Below, piece after piece: positions 1 through 25,056 of a stretch of 51,001 bases of DNA. Under the pieces are notes generated by a model that saw only the letters and a list, made by a program, of their open reading frames with translations, did no database searches and had not been told where the DNA came from. Each line of letters begins with the position of its first letter. The stretch's first letter is position 1. The DNA is from Candidatus Rokuibacteriota bacterium (GTDB lineage Bacteria > Methylomirabilota > Methylomirabilia > Rokubacteriales > CSP1-6): positions 1 through 51,001 of the forward strand of contig QHSO01000003.1 of assembly GCA_003220475.1 (NCBI GenBank), in the 5' to 3' direction. A program made the position numbers and the translations under genes.

Positions 1-80
1 GTGGCGGTCTGAGCGTGGGCGGTGACGACGCCAAAGCCGACGAGCATCGCGGACGCGGCCACGAACCACTTGAACGTCAT
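1..80 (-). CDS. Secreted protein, N-terminal fragment cut by window edge
   Basis: Only the first 26 codons are inside the window. ATG at 80-78 is preceded by a strong Shine-Dalgarno (AGGAGG on the minus strand, about 90-95) at good spacing. The encoded start is a typical Sec signal peptide: MTFKW, a hydrophobic core, then an AHA|QT-like cleavage site near residue 23. It begins 25 bases after the stop of the sigma-54 regulator, on the same strand, so the two probably form one transcript. The mature part is off the window, so its function cannot be told; the envelope/polysaccharide context suggests an exported cell-surface component. Confidence 0.6.
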   Translation of the reverse strand, partial: MTFKWFVAASAMLVGFGVVTAHAQTA

Positions 81-105: not shown

Positions 106-1557
<1,452 letters not shown>

Positions 1558-1591: not shown

Positions 1592-1609
1592 TCGCAAGAG
1601 ACGTGCCGT
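1592..1609 (-). promoter_or_regulatory. Sigma-54 (-24/-12) promoter of the degenerate-receiver regulator
   Basis: Read on the minus strand this is CGGCACGTCTCTTGCG, matching the RpoN consensus GGCACG-N4-TTGC with the GG and GC at the required 12-base offset. GG lies at 1607-1606 and GC at 1595-1594. Predicted transcription start is near 1583, about 26 bases upstream of the ATG at 1557. Confidence 0.75.
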
Positions 1610-1675
1610 ACCCGTTTTTCGCGGCTTTAGCGCGCACGTTGAAAATGCGCGTACCGCTCGTCATGGGTGGCGGCT

Positions 1676-1690
1676 CCACTCTGGGAGTGG
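1676..1690. promoter_or_regulatory. Inverted repeat, candidate enhancer-binding site
   Basis: CCACTC-TGG-GAGTGG is a perfect 6-bp inverted repeat. It lies about 95-105 bases upstream of the predicted start of the sigma-54 promoter at 1592-1609, the usual distance for an activator site of this class. It is also just downstream of the sugar-transferase stop, so a role as part of a terminator cannot be excluded. Confidence 0.35.
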
Positions 1691-1723
1691 CGGTGCCCGA
1701 TCGCGGAAAAGGTTTGACGCGGC

Positions 1724-3076
1724 TCATCCCGGACGTTTCCCGGACAGCACGAACTTCACGGTGTCGAACAGGATCCACAGGTCGAAGCGGAGCGAGAGGT
1801 GCTTGATGTAGTAGAGGTCGTAGCACAGCTTGCGCGTGACCTCTTCGGTCGACATCGAGTAACCGGCGCGCACCTGAGCCCAGCCGGTGAGGCCCGGCCG
1901 CACTTCGTGGCGCAGATTGTAAAAAGGGATCACGGCCGAGAACGTCGCGACGTTGGAGGCCATTTCCGGGCGGGGGCCCACCAGGCTCATATCGCCCTTG
2001 AGGATGTTGACGCACTGGGGGAGCTCGTCGAGCCGGTAGCGCCGCAGCACGGCGCCGAAGCGCGTCACGCGGCTGGCGTTGTCGCGCTGCCAGATACCGT
2101 CGGCGCCGCGCTCGGCCTGCCGCATCGTGCGGAACTTGATGAGGCGGAACGGCCGGCCACCGAGGCCGATCCGCTCCTGGATGAAGAAGACCGGTCCGCG
2201 CGACTCGAGCTTGATGGCGAGCGCGATGAGCGCGATGAGGGGAGCCGTCACCAGCAACGCGACGCTCGCGATCACGACGGACATCGCGCGCTTGAGCGCC
2301 AGTTGGGCGCGCGAGACGCGGAAGCCGTCGCCGAAGATGAGTGCGCTCGGTGTGAGCGACTCCACCGCCAGCCGCCGCGTGAAGCGCTCGTACGCCTCGG
2401 TGCCTTCCTCCACGCGGACGCCGCGGAAGCGGCATGCCAGCAACGCGGAGACCGGCAGGTTGCCGCGCCGATCGGGCATCGCGACGATGATGCGATCCGG
2501 GCGCTCGCGCAGCACGACGTCGGCGACGTCGCCGTAGCCGCCCAGCCGTCGCGCGCTCGCCACCGCGTCGCCGTCGGCGGTGAGGACGCCGGTCACGCGC
2601 ATCGCGAGATCGGGCCGTGTCAGGATCTGCCCGGCCAGATCCGCCGCGAGACGCCCGCCGCCCATGATGAGCACGCGCTCGGAAAACGGCGCGCGCTTCG
2701 CGAGCGCGTAGACGCCCAGGCGCAGGACGAGCACGGCGAACAGCGTGACGAACAACACGTAGGGCGCGAGGTTGCCGCCGATGATCGCGTTGGGAAACAG
2801 CAGATACGTTCCGGCCAGCACGAGCGCGGCGAGGCCGAGGGCCCGGCACAGCCGCGTGAAGAGCTGACCGACGTCGTGCGGCGCCTCGAAGTCGTAGAGA
2901 TCGTTGTAGTAGAACGCGCCGAGGCAAACGACAGCTACGATGCCGGCGCGCGCAGCCAGGCGCCAGAGACTCGTCGCCGGGTCGTCGATGGTGGGCGACC
3001 ACATGGCGATCGCGGCGGCGAGCACCGCAACCGTCGAAACTCCATCGAGCCACGCGAGGCGTTGTGCGAGAGACAT
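1724..3076 (-). CDS. Undecaprenyl-phosphate sugar phosphotransferase (EpsB/PEP-CTERM-associated type)
   Basis: A 450-residue polyprenyl-glycosylphosphotransferase that transfers the first sugar-1-phosphate to undecaprenyl phosphate to start exopolysaccharide repeat-unit synthesis at the inner membrane. Several N-terminal membrane segments (roughly 10-120) are followed by a Rossmann-like domain and a further membrane segment near 265-290. The C-terminal bacterial sugar transferase domain carries FRTM, the RRYRLDELPQ..NIL.GDMSLVGPRPE block and RPGLTGWAQV, all diagnostic. Length and architecture match the PEP-CTERM-system sugar transferases. A sigma-54 promoter lies about 24-50 bases upstream of the ATG. 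The next gene downstream on this strand is the sigma-54 regulator. Confidence 0.92.
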   Translation of the reverse strand: MSLAQRLAWLDGVSTVAVLAAAIAMWSPTIDDPATSLWRLAARAGIVAVVCLGAFYYNDLYDFEAPHDVGQLFTRLCRALGLAALVLAGTYLLFPNAIIGGNLAPYVLFVTLFAVLVLRLGVYALAKRAPFSERVLIMGGGRLAADLAGQILTRPDLAMRVTGVLTADGDAVASARRLGGYGDVADVVLRERPDRIIVAMPDRRGNLPVSALLACRFRGVRVEEGTEAYERFTRRLAVESLTPSALIFGDGFRVSRAQLALKRAMSVVIASVALLVTAPLIALIALAIKLESRGPVFFIQERIGLGGRPFRLIKFRTMRQAERGADGIWQRDNASRVTRFGAVLRRYRLDELPQCVNILKGDMSLVGPRPEMASNVATFSAVIPFYNLRHEVRPGLTGWAQVRAGYSMSTEEVTRKLCYDLYYIKHLSLRFDLWILFDTVKFVLSGKRPG

Positions 3077-3108
3077 GTTTCGCCGGGCGCGCCGGCTGAG
3101 CTATGCAA

Positions 3109-3126
3109 CGGCAAGGTCAGTGCCAA
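3109..3126 (-). promoter_or_regulatory. Sigma-54 (-24/-12) promoter of the sugar transferase
   Basis: On the minus strand: TTTGGCACTGACCTTGCC, i.e. TGGCAC then TTGC with GG at 3124-3123 and GC at 3112-3111, exactly 12 apart. Predicted start is about 3100, giving a leader of about 24 bases before the ATG at 3076. Confidence 0.8.
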
Positions 3127-3235
3127 ACCCTGCAAACCGTCGCAGAAGCCTGCGTTTGGGTGCGTTTTTCCCGCAGCCTTACGGTCAGGCGACGGTGCGG
3201 GCGAGGGACGTTACGGGAGAATTACTGCATTCGGC

Positions 3236-3262
3236 TGCAACCGCCCTGAGAAAGCGGCTGCA
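3236..3262 (-). terminator. Hairpin after the beta-barrel gene
   Basis: Inverted repeat TGCAACCGC / GCGGCTGCA (8 of 9 pairs) with a 9-base loop, directly downstream of the beta-barrel stop codon on the minus strand. There is no clear U tract. It separates the beta-barrel transcript from the sigma-54 promoter of the sugar transferase. Confidence 0.4.
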
Positions 3263-3266
3263 CGCA

Positions 3267-4428
3267 CTACGGCCGATCGAAGGTGATGGGGTAACCGAAT
3301 TGCAAACCCACGAACAGCCGGTTCTGATCGGCGTCGGCGGCGAACAGGTTGCCCGCCGTGTCGCGGACCTCGTGGGCGGTGCGCTGCTGGTAGAACTGGT
3401 AGCGCGCGACGGCGGCCATCCACGCCGTGAGCCGGTAGGTGACCTGCAGCGGCAATGTGATCGAGGAAATGTCGATATCCCGGTTGTCGGCGCTGCGTAT
3501 CTTTCCGGCCGACTTCACCCACGAGTAGCGCGGCGCGAAGGACAGCGTCAGCCCGCGCGCGAACGTGATGACGTCGACGTGGCCGAAGACGGACGTGTTG
3601 TCGGTGACGCCGCCGAGGCCACCCGCCGTCGCCACCTCCATTCACGGCCAGCGTGATGGTGGGCGTGACCTGCCAGCTCGCGCCGACCTTCGGGGTGTGC
3701 GTGGTGACCTTGTCCTCGTGCTCGATGTCGAAGTAGCCGAAGTCGTAGCCGATGCTGCCGCGCACCTGCCGTGTCAGCGTGCGATCCAGAAACAGATAGC
3801 CGTGGTAGACGTCGGAGTCGTCGAGCTCGCCGCGCGAGAAGCGCTGCAGGGCGTACGAGGCGCCGCCGCGCACCGCGGTGAACTCGTCGAGCTTGTACGC
3901 GGCGCCGCCGGAGAGCGCGTTGCCCCACGAACGATTGCGTCCGACCGAGACGCCGGCCGGTGAGATGAGGTTGGTGTCCGTGGTGGCGGTGAACGCGTCG
4001 GCGAGGGTGAGCGTGAGGCGCTCGGTCGCTCGCCACATGCCGTCGAGGTTGAAGTTCTGCGTGTTGAACGCGTTGTCGCGGGTCGGGTCGCGCAGATAGA
4101 GCTCGGCCGTGAAGTTGTAACCCGCGATGAGCCGGTGCGTGCGGCTCTCCCAGATCAGATTGATCGCCGGCGTGATCCCGGTGATCAGGTCCCAGGTGCG
4201 ATTGTGATTGTCGAGCAGGATGTTGTCGTTGTACTCCTCGCTCAGCGTGATCGTCGGCAGCAGGGTGAACGGTGCGCGCAGCGGCAGCTGCAGCTTCTGC
4301 GGATCCTGCGCGGGCCCCTGCGTGGCGAACTGCGGCGCGATCGGCACCTGCTGAGCGAGCGCGCGCCCGGGCAGGAGGCACACGGCGAGCACGACGCAGA
4401 CGAGGAGAAGGCGGGCGATCACGCGCAA
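3267..4428 (-). pseudogene. Outer-membrane beta-barrel protein (BBP2-like, PEP-CTERM-associated type), frameshifted
   Basis: The N-terminal part (ATG at 4428) has a signal peptide ending near ALAQ, then beta-barrel strands with the typical opening LSEEYNDNILLDN, as in putative beta-barrel porin 2 and PEP-CTERM-associated outer-membrane proteins. About residue 260, near base 3645, the frame breaks. The barrel continues one frame over to the stop at 3267, ending ...QFGYPITFDRP. Restoring one base would give about 385 residues, a normal size. Read literally, the first frame runs on as Arg-rich nonsense to 3211. It starts 7 bases after the response regulator, so the two are co-transcribed. Either a recent null mutation or an assembly error. 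Confidence 0.8.
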
Positions 4429-4435
4429 ACGAATA

Positions 4436-4828
4436 TCACACGTCGCCGAGCCGCGGGAAGGGCTTTTTGGCCGCGCCCGTGTGGAGTCGTTCGATGGCTT
4501 GGTGGTAGTGCGTGAGCGCCGACGGCTTTTGAATCACGTCGACAGCGCCGAGTTTCTTCACGTCCTCGATCTCCTCGGGCGTCGCGTGGCCGGTGATGAC
4601 GACGATCGCGAGCGCGGGCCGCATCCGCCGCACCTCGGCCATGACGTCGAGGCCATTCATGCCGGGCATCGAGACGTCGAGAAACATCGCGTCGAACGCC
4701 GTGCTCTTGAGCCGGTCCAGGGCCTCGCGTCCGGAATGGACCACCGTTGTCGAATGCCCCTGCCGTTTGAGTGACATGGCGAGGACTTCCGCCACCTGCG
4801 GCTCGTCGTCGACGATCATGATCTCCAT
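4436..4828 (-). CDS. Single-domain response regulator (CheY-like)
   Basis: A 130-residue stand-alone receiver. All active-site elements are present: acidic pair in IVDDEP (5-10), phosphoacceptor Asp in FLDVSMPGMNG, Thr in VITGH, and Lys in IQKPS. There is no output domain, so it must act through protein contact or phosphorelay. GGAGG lies just before the ATG. It is immediately upstream of the beta-barrel gene and divergent from the second sigma-54 activator. No cognate histidine kinase is adjacent. Confidence 0.9.
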   Translation of the reverse strand: MEIMIVDDEPQVAEVLAMSLKRQGHSTTVVHSGREALDRLKSTAFDAMFLDVSMPGMNGLDVMAEVRRMRPALAIVVITGHATPEEIEDVKKLGAVDVIQKPSALTHYHQAIERLHTGAAKKPFPRLGDV

Positions 4829-4843
4829 TTCTTTTCCTCCTTC

Positions 4844-4858
4844 TTGTAAGTACTACAA
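4844..4858. promoter_or_regulatory. TTGTA-N5-TACAA inverted repeat in divergent regulatory region
   Basis: A near-perfect palindrome in the region between the response regulator (minus) and the sigma-54 activator (plus). It sits about 120-135 bases upstream of the predicted start of the sigma-54 promoter at 4953-4970, a normal enhancer distance. Further half-sites TACAA (4875) and TTGTA (4919) lie closer to the promoter. This stretch is AT-rich compared with the rest of the window. The binding protein is unknown; autoregulation by the adjacent activator is a guess. Confidence 0.4.
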
Positions 4859-4952
4859 TATGCCCTGAACTTTCTACAAAGGAATCGTCCCGGAATAGGG
4901 GTCAGAGATCGCAAATACTTGTAATCACTGGAAGGTGACAGTGGGAAAACTC

Positions 4953-4970
4953 TTGGCACATCCAGTGCAT
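4953..4970 (+). promoter_or_regulatory. Sigma-54 (-24/-12) promoter of the receiver-less activator
   Basis: TTGGCACATCCAGTGCAT: GG at 4955-4956 and GC at 4967-4968, 12 apart, matching TGGCAC-N5-TTGC closely (GTGC instead of TTGC). Predicted start is about 4979-4980, giving a leader of about 46 bases to the ATG at 5026. Confidence 0.72.
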
Positions 4971-5025: not shown

Positions 5026-6057
5026 ATGAGTGAGCCCCTGATGGCCCTCTGCACCAGCAGCAAGATGCAGCCGATCCGCGATCTGATTTCGAAGGTCGCA
5101 GGCACCAACACGACCGTCCTGCTGCGCGGGGAGAGCGGCACCGGCAAAGAGGTGCTCGCCCGCGCCCTTCACAAGGCGTCGCCGCGCGTCGGCAAGCAGT
5201 TCCTCAAGGTCAATTGCGCCGCGCTGCCCGGCGAGCTGCTCGAGTCCGAGCTCTTCGGCCATGAGAAGGGCGCGTTCACAGGGGCGTACCGTCAGAAGCC
5301 CGGGAAGTTCGAGGCCGCGCACCAGGGCACGCTGCTCCTCGACGAGATCGGCGAGATGCCGCTGCGGCTGCAGGCCAAGCTCCTGCACGTGCTGCAGGAC
5401 GGCGAGTTCTCGCGCGTCGGCGGCGAGAAGATCATCGACAGCGACGTGCGGCTCATCGCTGCCACCAACCGCGACCTCGAAGCCAGCATGCGTGCGCATC
5501 AGTTCAGGGAAGACCTCTATTACCGTCTCAATGTCATCGAGATCCGCATTCCGCCGCTCCGCGAGCGTCGCGAAGAGATCCCGGGCCTCGTCGACTTCTT
5601 CCTCAAGAAGTTCAACGCGCAATATGGCCGCGCGGTTGACATCCCGGCCGAGACGATGCGCGTATTCGTCGATTATCACTGGCCGGGCAATATCCGCGAG
5701 CTCGAGAACGCCATCAAGCGCGTCGTCGTGCTGGGCACGGCCCGGCCCGTCCACACGGAGATCGTGGGTAACATCAGCCGCGGTCCGCGCGTGACCACGC
5801 CCGGCGTCCCGGTCACGACAGCCTCGATCGTGACGCCCGACGCGCCGATCAGCCTCAAAGAGATCGCGCGGCAGGCGGCCCGGGAGGCGGAGCGCGTGGC
5901 CATCAAGGAAGTGCTCGACCGCGTGCACTGGAATCGCGCGAAGGCCGCGCGCCTGCTGCAGATCAGCTACAAGGCGCTGCTCTACAAGATCGTGCAGTGC
6001 GGCCTCGTGGTCCAGGAGACGGAGCCGGAGAAGCAGAAGGAAGTCATCGCGTCCTGA
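5026..6057 (+). CDS. Sigma-54-dependent transcriptional activator without a receiver domain
   Basis: A 343-residue protein made only of the AAA+ sigma-54 activator domain (about 8-240) and a Fis-type HTH (about 298-330). Walker A GESGTGKE (35-42), GAFTGA (82-87) and Walker B LLLDEIGE (103-110) are intact, followed by the arginine-rich [11 protein letters not shown] and [10 protein letters not shown] blocks. With no sensory N-terminus, activity is probably set by a partner protein or by expression level. I chose ATG 5026, which has GAGGAG nine bases upstream, over a TTG at 4975 that would fall before the predicted transcript start. Its C-terminal region is closely similar to that of the regulator at 106-1557 ([19 protein letters not shown]), so the two are paralogs and may share targets. 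Confidence 0.93.
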
Positions 6058-6127
6058 CGGGCACGAGCCATTCGCGGAGCGTGAGCCCCGACATCAGGAC
6101 GAAGTAGAGCAGCACGCGCAGGATCAT
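6044..6127 (-). CDS. Possible 27-residue membrane peptide
   Basis: An ATG at 6127 is preceded by a strong GAGGAGG ribosome site eight bases upstream and opens a 27-codon frame: [12 protein letters not shown], then a short polar tail. Its 3' end overlaps the sigma-54 activator's last 14 bases on the opposite strand. The Shine-Dalgarno and hydrophobic N-terminus are the only evidence. It could equally be chance in this GC-rich background. Confidence 0.3.
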
Positions 6128-6170
6128 CGGTTTTGCCTCCTCAGGGCCGACCTGAAGAGCAACTCCCGTG

Positions 6171-6221
6171 CCCCGCCTGCGCAAGCGCGTCAAGTACGCG
6201 GTTCACGACGCGCAGGCGGGG
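6171..6221. repeat. Long-arm inverted repeat
   Basis: CCCCGCCTGCGC (6171-6182) pairs perfectly with GCGCAGGCGGGG (6210-6221). An inner GCGCGTC/GACGCGC pair can form within the 27-base interval. It lies between the sigma-54 activator and the TatA/B-like gene. It may terminate the activator transcript, although no U tract follows. Confidence 0.45.
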
Positions 6222-6291
6222 CGCACCGAGATGACCGCAGGGAAATTCTTTGCCGCCTTCGGGCACCCCCGGAAGCCCCGTCGGCGCGTGG

Positions 6292-24488: not shown

Positions 24489-24968
24489 TCAGGAGACCTT
24501 GCGCTCCTTGACCTCGCCGTGCTGGATCTCGCCGCGCCAGGCGCCCGTCTCGCGGCCGCGCCGCTCGATGAACTCCTGGAAGCGCTCGAGGTCGCCCTTG
24601 ACGCGGACCTTCACGATGCCGAGCGCGTCGGCGACGTTCTCGACGGCGCCCTGCGGATCGTAGTCGACCTGGAGCATCACGCGTGTGCGGTTGTCGTCGA
24701 TCCGGTGAAAGGTCACCGCGCCCGCGTTCCATGCGCCGCCGCGGCTCGTCCACGCGATGCGCTCGTCGGGGCGCTGCTCGACGATCTCGGCGTCCCATTC
24801 CTTTTCCTTGCCGCCGATGACCGCGCGCCAGTGCAGGCGCTTGTCGTCGAGCTGATGAACTTCCTTCACGCCCTCCATGAAGCGCGGAAACTCCTCGAAC
24901 TGCGTCCACTGGTTGTAGACCGCCCGAAGCGGTGCATTGACCTCGATGGACTGCTCGATAGTCGCCAT
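24489..24968 (-). CDS. SRPBCC (START-like) family protein, cyclase/dehydrase type
   Basis: A 159-residue single-domain protein starting MATIEQSIEVNAPLRAVYNQWTQFE, the standard opening of the coenzyme-Q-binding/polyketide cyclase-like SRPBCC family, with a hydrophobic ligand cavity. I choose ATG 24968, preceded by AGGAGGGG. No catalytic residues can be assigned. It sits between the TlpA-like gene and the dehydrogenase, all on the minus strand. Confidence 0.85.
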   Translation of the reverse strand: MATIEQSIEVNAPLRAVYNQWTQFEEFPRFMEGVKEVHQLDDKRLHWRAVIGGKEKEWDAEIVEQRPDERIAWTSRGGAWNAGAVTFHRIDDNRTRVMLQVDYDPQGAVENVADALGIVKVRVKGDLERFQEFIERRGRETGAWRGEIQHGEVKERKVS

Positions 24969-25056
24969 GATGAACCCCTCCTGAACATTCGATCGGGCTG
25001 GTAGTGCGGTCGCAACTTCGGTGCCACCGAGCACCGGTGGAGGGACGCGGCGCGAA

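Follow-up and report, generated by a model that had tools for sequence, protein, structure and literature searches.

A predicted sigma-54 module of four conserved promoters heading an exosortase/exopolysaccharide locus of XrtA type in Rokubacteria

Results

Contig QHSO01000003.1 (C105) of a Candidatus Rokuibacteriota draft genome (4.8 Mb, 92% complete), analysed here over its entire 51,001 nucleotides (nt) and hereafter called the window, carries what is best read, with a probability of roughly 0.7, as the regulatory region at the front of an exosortase/exopolysaccharide (EPS) locus of XrtA type: a module of four sigma-54 promoters, P1 to P4, on which the two sigma-54 activators encoded at the locus itself, activators 1 and 3, would be the likeliest to act. 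Sigma-54 RNA polymerase would wait at P1 for activator 1 and the EPS operon, at P2 for a sugar transferase, at P3 for activator 3 and at P4 for a small membrane peptide, and opening of these promoters would require ATP hydrolysis by a sigma-54 activator. Rokubacteria are a little-studied group of soil bacteria, and a literature search of limited scope returned no description of sigma-54 control in them; RpoN is encoded in the genome (PF00309, 63 bits, contig C141).

An earlier note on this DNA had proposed three -24/-12 promoters, before two activator genes and a sugar transferase gene, and these were recovered with exact coordinates and the correct GG-N10-GC offset: P1 at 1594-1607 on the minus strand (CGGCACGTCTCTTGC, read as cGGCACG-TCTC-TTGC), P2 at 3111-3124 on the minus strand (TGGCACTGACCTTGC, TGGCACT-GACC-TTGC) and P3 at 4955-4968 on the plus strand (TGGCACATCCAGTGCA, TGGCACA-TCCAG-TGCA). 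P1 lies approximately 35 nt from the best start of activator 1, ATG 1557, which is preferred to ATG 1575 and has GGAAGAAAG upstream, while P2 and P3 lie 33 nt from ATG 3076 and 56 nt from ATG 5026, respectively. Comparison with orthologous loci from the same family, among which activator 3 is 74-94% identical, found P1 conserved in 10/10, P2 in 9/9 and P3 in 12/12. The -24 and -12 cores are near-invariant across the orthologs and the spacer and flanking bases drift, with mean top-base frequencies for core, spacer and flank of 0.97, 0.80 and 0.56 at P1, 1.00, 0.69 and 0.61 at P2, and 0.96, 0.65 and 0.61 at P3. In one relative (G014) only a decayed remnant of the sugar transferase is left, yet P1 and P2 have both been retained. 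The sequence and its conservation establish the gene order and support P1 to P3 as real sigma-54 promoters, bearing out the proposal that such sites precede the sugar transferase gene and the genes of the two activators.

The three-promoter description was nevertheless incomplete, as it overlooked a fourth conserved promoter, P4, at 6158-6173 on the minus strand (GGGCACGGGAGTTGCT), which matches 11/12 consensus bases, is the best-scoring site of the window scan, is conserved in 12/12 loci and is convergent with activator 3. All four promoters share the sigma-54 geometry of GG and GC 10 bases apart in a TGGCAC-N5-TTGC context. Downstream of P4 in 10/12 loci is an open reading frame (ORF) of 27-30 codons, usually behind a stretch resembling a ribosome-binding site; in the window it encodes 27 amino acids (6044-6127, minus strand) and overlaps the end of activator 3. 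The predicted product consists of one hydrophobic helix and a basic tail, with the consensus LRVLxYxxLLxxxAxRE and five invariant residues (L3, R4, Y8, L11 and E19). Variation is greatest at third codon positions (0.32 versus 0.21 and 0.10), and the nonsynonymous rate is below the synonymous rate in 5/5 close pairs, clearly so in four, the sequences being short. A hidden Markov model of the peptide matched 10 of 99 related genomes at E<=2e-9, every match falling at this locus and the next best having E=0.03, and a comparison with Pfam gave no match. Taken together, sequence and conservation mark this ORF as a previously unrecognised gene.

Activator 1 (106-1557, minus strand) combines an AAA+ domain and a Fis-type helix-turn-helix with a degenerate receiver (Pfam Sigma54_activat, HTH_8 and Response_reg). 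In 10/10 orthologs the acceptor aspartate that defines an NtrC-type receiver is replaced by alanine and the conserved lysine by arginine. Activator 3 (5026-6057, plus strand; PF00158, AAA_lid_14 and HTH_8) begins at its AAA+ domain, with the same start in 12/12 loci, so that the alignment of orthologs agrees with the earlier description of one degenerate and one missing receiver. Divergent to activator 3 is a gene for a stand-alone response-regulator receiver (4436-4828, minus strand; PF00072, 97 bits) with an intact DD/D/T/K set, its catalytic residues being present in 13/13 aligned sequences. No kinase adjoins the activators among the flanking genes in the window. Identification of activators 1 and 3 as PrsR was rejected, as they score 337 and 317 bits against TIGR02915, below its cut-off of 502.6. 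A search of wider genome contigs with activator 3 returned, for the most part, sigma-54 activators that are unrelated, and none that is a close ortholog by name. More distant versions of the locus occur in two genomes (G030 and G055), where a receiver-less activator is divergent from a stand-alone receiver and a degenerate activator comes next, with an EPS operon behind it and with TGGTAC-N5-TTGC sites upstream of the activator. A Terriglobia locus (L240, G102:C128) was rejected as an ortholog because it is too distant; its single stretch holds a kinase, an activator with a normal receiver, a divergent receiver-less activator, a PEP-CTERM gene and a tetratricopeptide repeat (TPR) lipoprotein.

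The assignment to an exosortase/EPS locus rests on the genes around activator 1 and on their counterparts in relatives. The gene beginning 25 nt after activator 1 (1-80, minus strand) has a signal peptide (MTFKWFVAASAMLVGFGVVTAHAQ), within which the window stops, and is presumed to encode an EPS export protein, the matching position in relative G012 being occupied by a TIGR03027/EpsY-like EPS export protein. There, genes in the same orientation past activator 1 encode EPS export, a chain-length determinant, an XrtA-associated ATPase, a tyrosine autokinase, an XrtA deacetylase, glycosyltransferases, a flippase and an exosortase. The deacetylase (TIGR03006) and exosortase (TIGR02602) exceed their cut-offs; for the export, chain-length and ATPase proteins the XrtA-specific models are the best matches, yet fall slightly to clearly below cut-off. 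Five relatives carry an exosortase on the same contig, approximately 14 kb away. The gene set of an XrtA/exosortase EPS locus is thus present in G012 and, through contig C273, in the genome under study; the matching operon lies on C273, which breaks off within the chain-length gene and so probably abuts the window contig. The EPS operon most likely starts with activator 1, in which case P1 would probably drive both. These observations support the earlier view that the locus controls EPS, but the setting proposed, EPS initiation, needs correction, since the module stands at the front of an XrtA/exosortase EPS operon.

Two further genes separate activator 1 from the stand-alone receiver. The EPS sugar transferase (1724-3076, minus strand; PF02397) is a polyprenyl glycosylphosphotransferase of EpsB/TIGR03013-like type, scoring 371.6 bits against TIGR03025, above the cut-off of 295.55, and 372.4 bits against TIGR03013 versus a cut-off of 393.35. 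The other gene (3211-4428, minus strand) encodes a TIGR03016-like XrtA-system outer-membrane protein (48 bits, N-terminal part only) with a frame shift near 3640 that places the C-terminal part in another frame, reflecting either a sequencing error or a pseudogene.

Upstream of the promoters, conserved elements were found that differ from one promoter to the next. The candidate enhancer of P1 (1705-1718, minus strand; GTCAAACCTTTTCC) follows the pattern GTCAAA-N2-TTTNC and lies at -110 to -90 of the -24 box in 8/9 loci and at -68 in the ninth; a scan with the P1 matrix found it absent from P2 and P3. The same matrix gave 10.8 bits for a candidate enhancer of P4 in the window (6241-6254, minus strand; GGCAAAGAATTTCC), which resembles the P1 element weakly here and scores weakly elsewhere, a GGAA-N5/6-TT-CC pattern being present in most loci. 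At P3, three TTGTA/TACAA-type elements stand in fixed order: a candidate enhancer between the receiver and activator 3 (4844-4858; TTGTAAGTACTACAA), with at least one half kept in nearly all of 12 loci, and, on the plus strand, elements at 4871-4880 (TTTCTACAAA; TACAA in 12/12) and 4918-4927 (CTTGTAATCA; TGTAA in 11/12). The arrangement of TGTAA, TACAA and TGGCA occurs once in the genome, at P3. Two activator sites had been proposed previously, with differing outcomes: the one at 4844-4858 holds across the family, though mostly in imperfect form, whereas the CCACTCCCAGAGTGG dyad at 1676-1690, perfect in the window and a congener, is intact in only those 2/9 loci, partial in two others and absent elsewhere. 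A common enhancer for P1, P2 and P3 was rejected as no element is shared, and a single activator for all promoters is accordingly unsupported.

Motif counts alone distinguish these sites poorly from background. Scanning the window at a score of at least 10/12 gave nine sites, compared with 4.55 in shuffles of the 51 kb, making the motif by itself weak evidence, and the one-mismatch pattern was not commoner genome-wide than its reversed control (257 versus 397); raw counts were therefore rejected as evidence. Placement is much more informative. The exact TGGCAC-N5-TTGC sequence occurs 29 times in the genome, 25 of them intergenic, and 23 lie at most 120 nt upstream of a predicted start (gene positions from a simple codon-usage gene finder), where random positions fall in 4.6% of cases; with a 7-base spacer, two bases longer, there were three matches genome-wide, every one within genes. 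Position and conservation therefore carry the case, conservation being the strongest evidence against chance.

Sigma-54 sites also precede genes elsewhere in the genome. An exact consensus (TGGCACCGAAGTTGCG; 25011-25026, minus strand), likewise missing from the earlier site list, stands isolated in the window approximately 42 nt before a polyketide-cyclase/lipid-transport (SRPBCC) gene at 24489-24968. A lipoprotein gene and two genes of PEP-CTERM type have sites approximately 13-35 nt ahead of them on contigs C22 (1129 and 3324) and C82 (237), two type IV pilin-like genes on C18 and C99 have preceding TGGCAT-N6-TGCA sites, and many signal-peptide proteins across the genome are also preceded by sigma-54 sites. 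Judged from these placements, P1 to P4 belong to a larger, surface-related genomic sigma-54 regulon covering pilin-like, PEP-CTERM and envelope proteins.

Discussion

Since the genes of both activators have sigma-54 promoters, activation would reinforce itself or proceed in steps, and feedback or cascade wiring, as the earlier note had suggested, is plausible. We infer the pairing of activators 1 and 3 with P1 to P4, as well as the extent of the operon, the feedback and the role of the peptide. As a working guess, activator 1, to which the usual route of phosphorylation is closed, would be governed by its own amount, and activator 3 would be controlled in trans by a partner, perhaps the divergent stand-alone receiver. 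A more ambitious version, in which receiver and activator 3 form a split response regulator and, together with the micropeptide, then a sigma-54 circuit modulator of a new kind, make up a bistable, self-amplifying EPS switch, is an unlikely extension.

Two observations weigh against action by the locus activators at all four promoters: no upstream element is common to P1, P2 and P3, with P1 and P3 carrying different conserved elements, and a true PrsR encoded elsewhere in the genome could act on some of P1 to P4. Contig C61 (L246) carries a tandem set of a PrsT-like TPR gene, PrsK and PrsR, which is a PEP-CTERM two-component system of canonical type within Rokubacteria, with PrsR at 568.6 bits against TIGR02915 and PrsK also above its family cut-off. 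Another sigma-54 activator, such as this PrsR under the control of PrsK, might then open the promoters, with activators 1 and 3 as outputs directed at other sigma-54 genes, such as the PEP-CTERM and pilin-like genes that have sigma-54 sites of their own, giving a feed-forward cascade without feedback; the differing elements at P1 and P3 would also suit this arrangement. However, promoters and activator genes have been passed on together as a single block, and PrsK exceeded the cut-off in only 7/60 relatives and in none of G002, G014, G018, G032 and G033, all of which keep the locus and its promoters (16 best candidates scored per genome, assemblies incomplete). PrsK/PrsR are on this evidence probably not required for the locus, and control from outside by PrsR appears improbable, if still the most serious competitor to control by the locus activators.

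Considerably less probable is a brake, in which the stand-alone receiver, or else the peptide, would hold activator 3 inactive and the peptide would damp the circuit at the membrane, yielding negative feedback. Receiver-less activators are restrained by partner proteins, as PspF is in trans by PspA, and the peptide is served by a separate, conserved sigma-54 promoter that is convergent with activator 3. Binding, however, draws no support from the sequence, and the peptide was not found in 2/12 loci although P4 is present there. Activator 3 and PspF are alike in lacking a receiver, but PspA is not a receiver domain and pspF is not itself transcribed by sigma-54. Finally, that P1 to P4 are fortuitous resemblances to -24/-12 sites in a GC-rich genome is extremely unlikely, for although the window count is just twice the shuffled mean, the conservation of four orthologous promoters, the spacing control and the enrichment in promoter zones all contradict it.

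Regulation of PEP-CTERM/exosortase systems by PrsK-PrsR and sigma-54 is known in Proteobacteria (Haft 2006, PMC1569441; Aquincola pepA, PMC9850573), where a PrsR-linked motif ending TTTACA lies approximately 63 nt upstream of the sigma-54 motif, the pair having been seen in Proteobacteria only (Haft 2006, PMC1569441). The Rokubacterial module is similar in tying sigma-54 promoters and NtrC-like activators to an XrtA/EPS locus and in having PEP-CTERM genes under sigma-54 sites, and in Aquincola (PMC9850573) the sugar transferase epsB2 likewise adjoins the regulators. It differs in that its activators fall well short of the PrsR model, have degenerate or missing receivers and no kinase alongside, and in that its sites would control the activators and EPS genes themselves. 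The syp locus of Vibrio fischeri (PMC10162802) is likewise an EPS locus with its own sigma-54 activator, SypG, and several internal sigma-54 promoters (four operons), but SypG has a phosphorylatable receiver, a kinase relay and no receiver-less partner. In the Myxococcus xanthus cascade, e.g. Nla28 (PMC9765219, citing Giglio 2011), activators are likewise transcribed from activator-controlled sigma-54 promoters, including autoregulation; its loci are scattered, serve starvation development and have activity shown by experiment, whereas the Rokubacterial circuit is predicted from sequence. Given two activator genes under sigma-54 promoters and the M. xanthus and SypG precedents, self-wiring is a reasonable proposal.

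These results place sigma-54 control of an exosortase/EPS locus outside the Proteobacteria, in uncultured Rokubacteria, with a set of regulators unlike PrsK/PrsR. The locus yields four sharply defined promoters, two oddly built regulators and one newly recognised peptide, all of which could be tested in a laboratory host, and if the feedback is true it would constitute a compact, natural, all-or-none switch for EPS.

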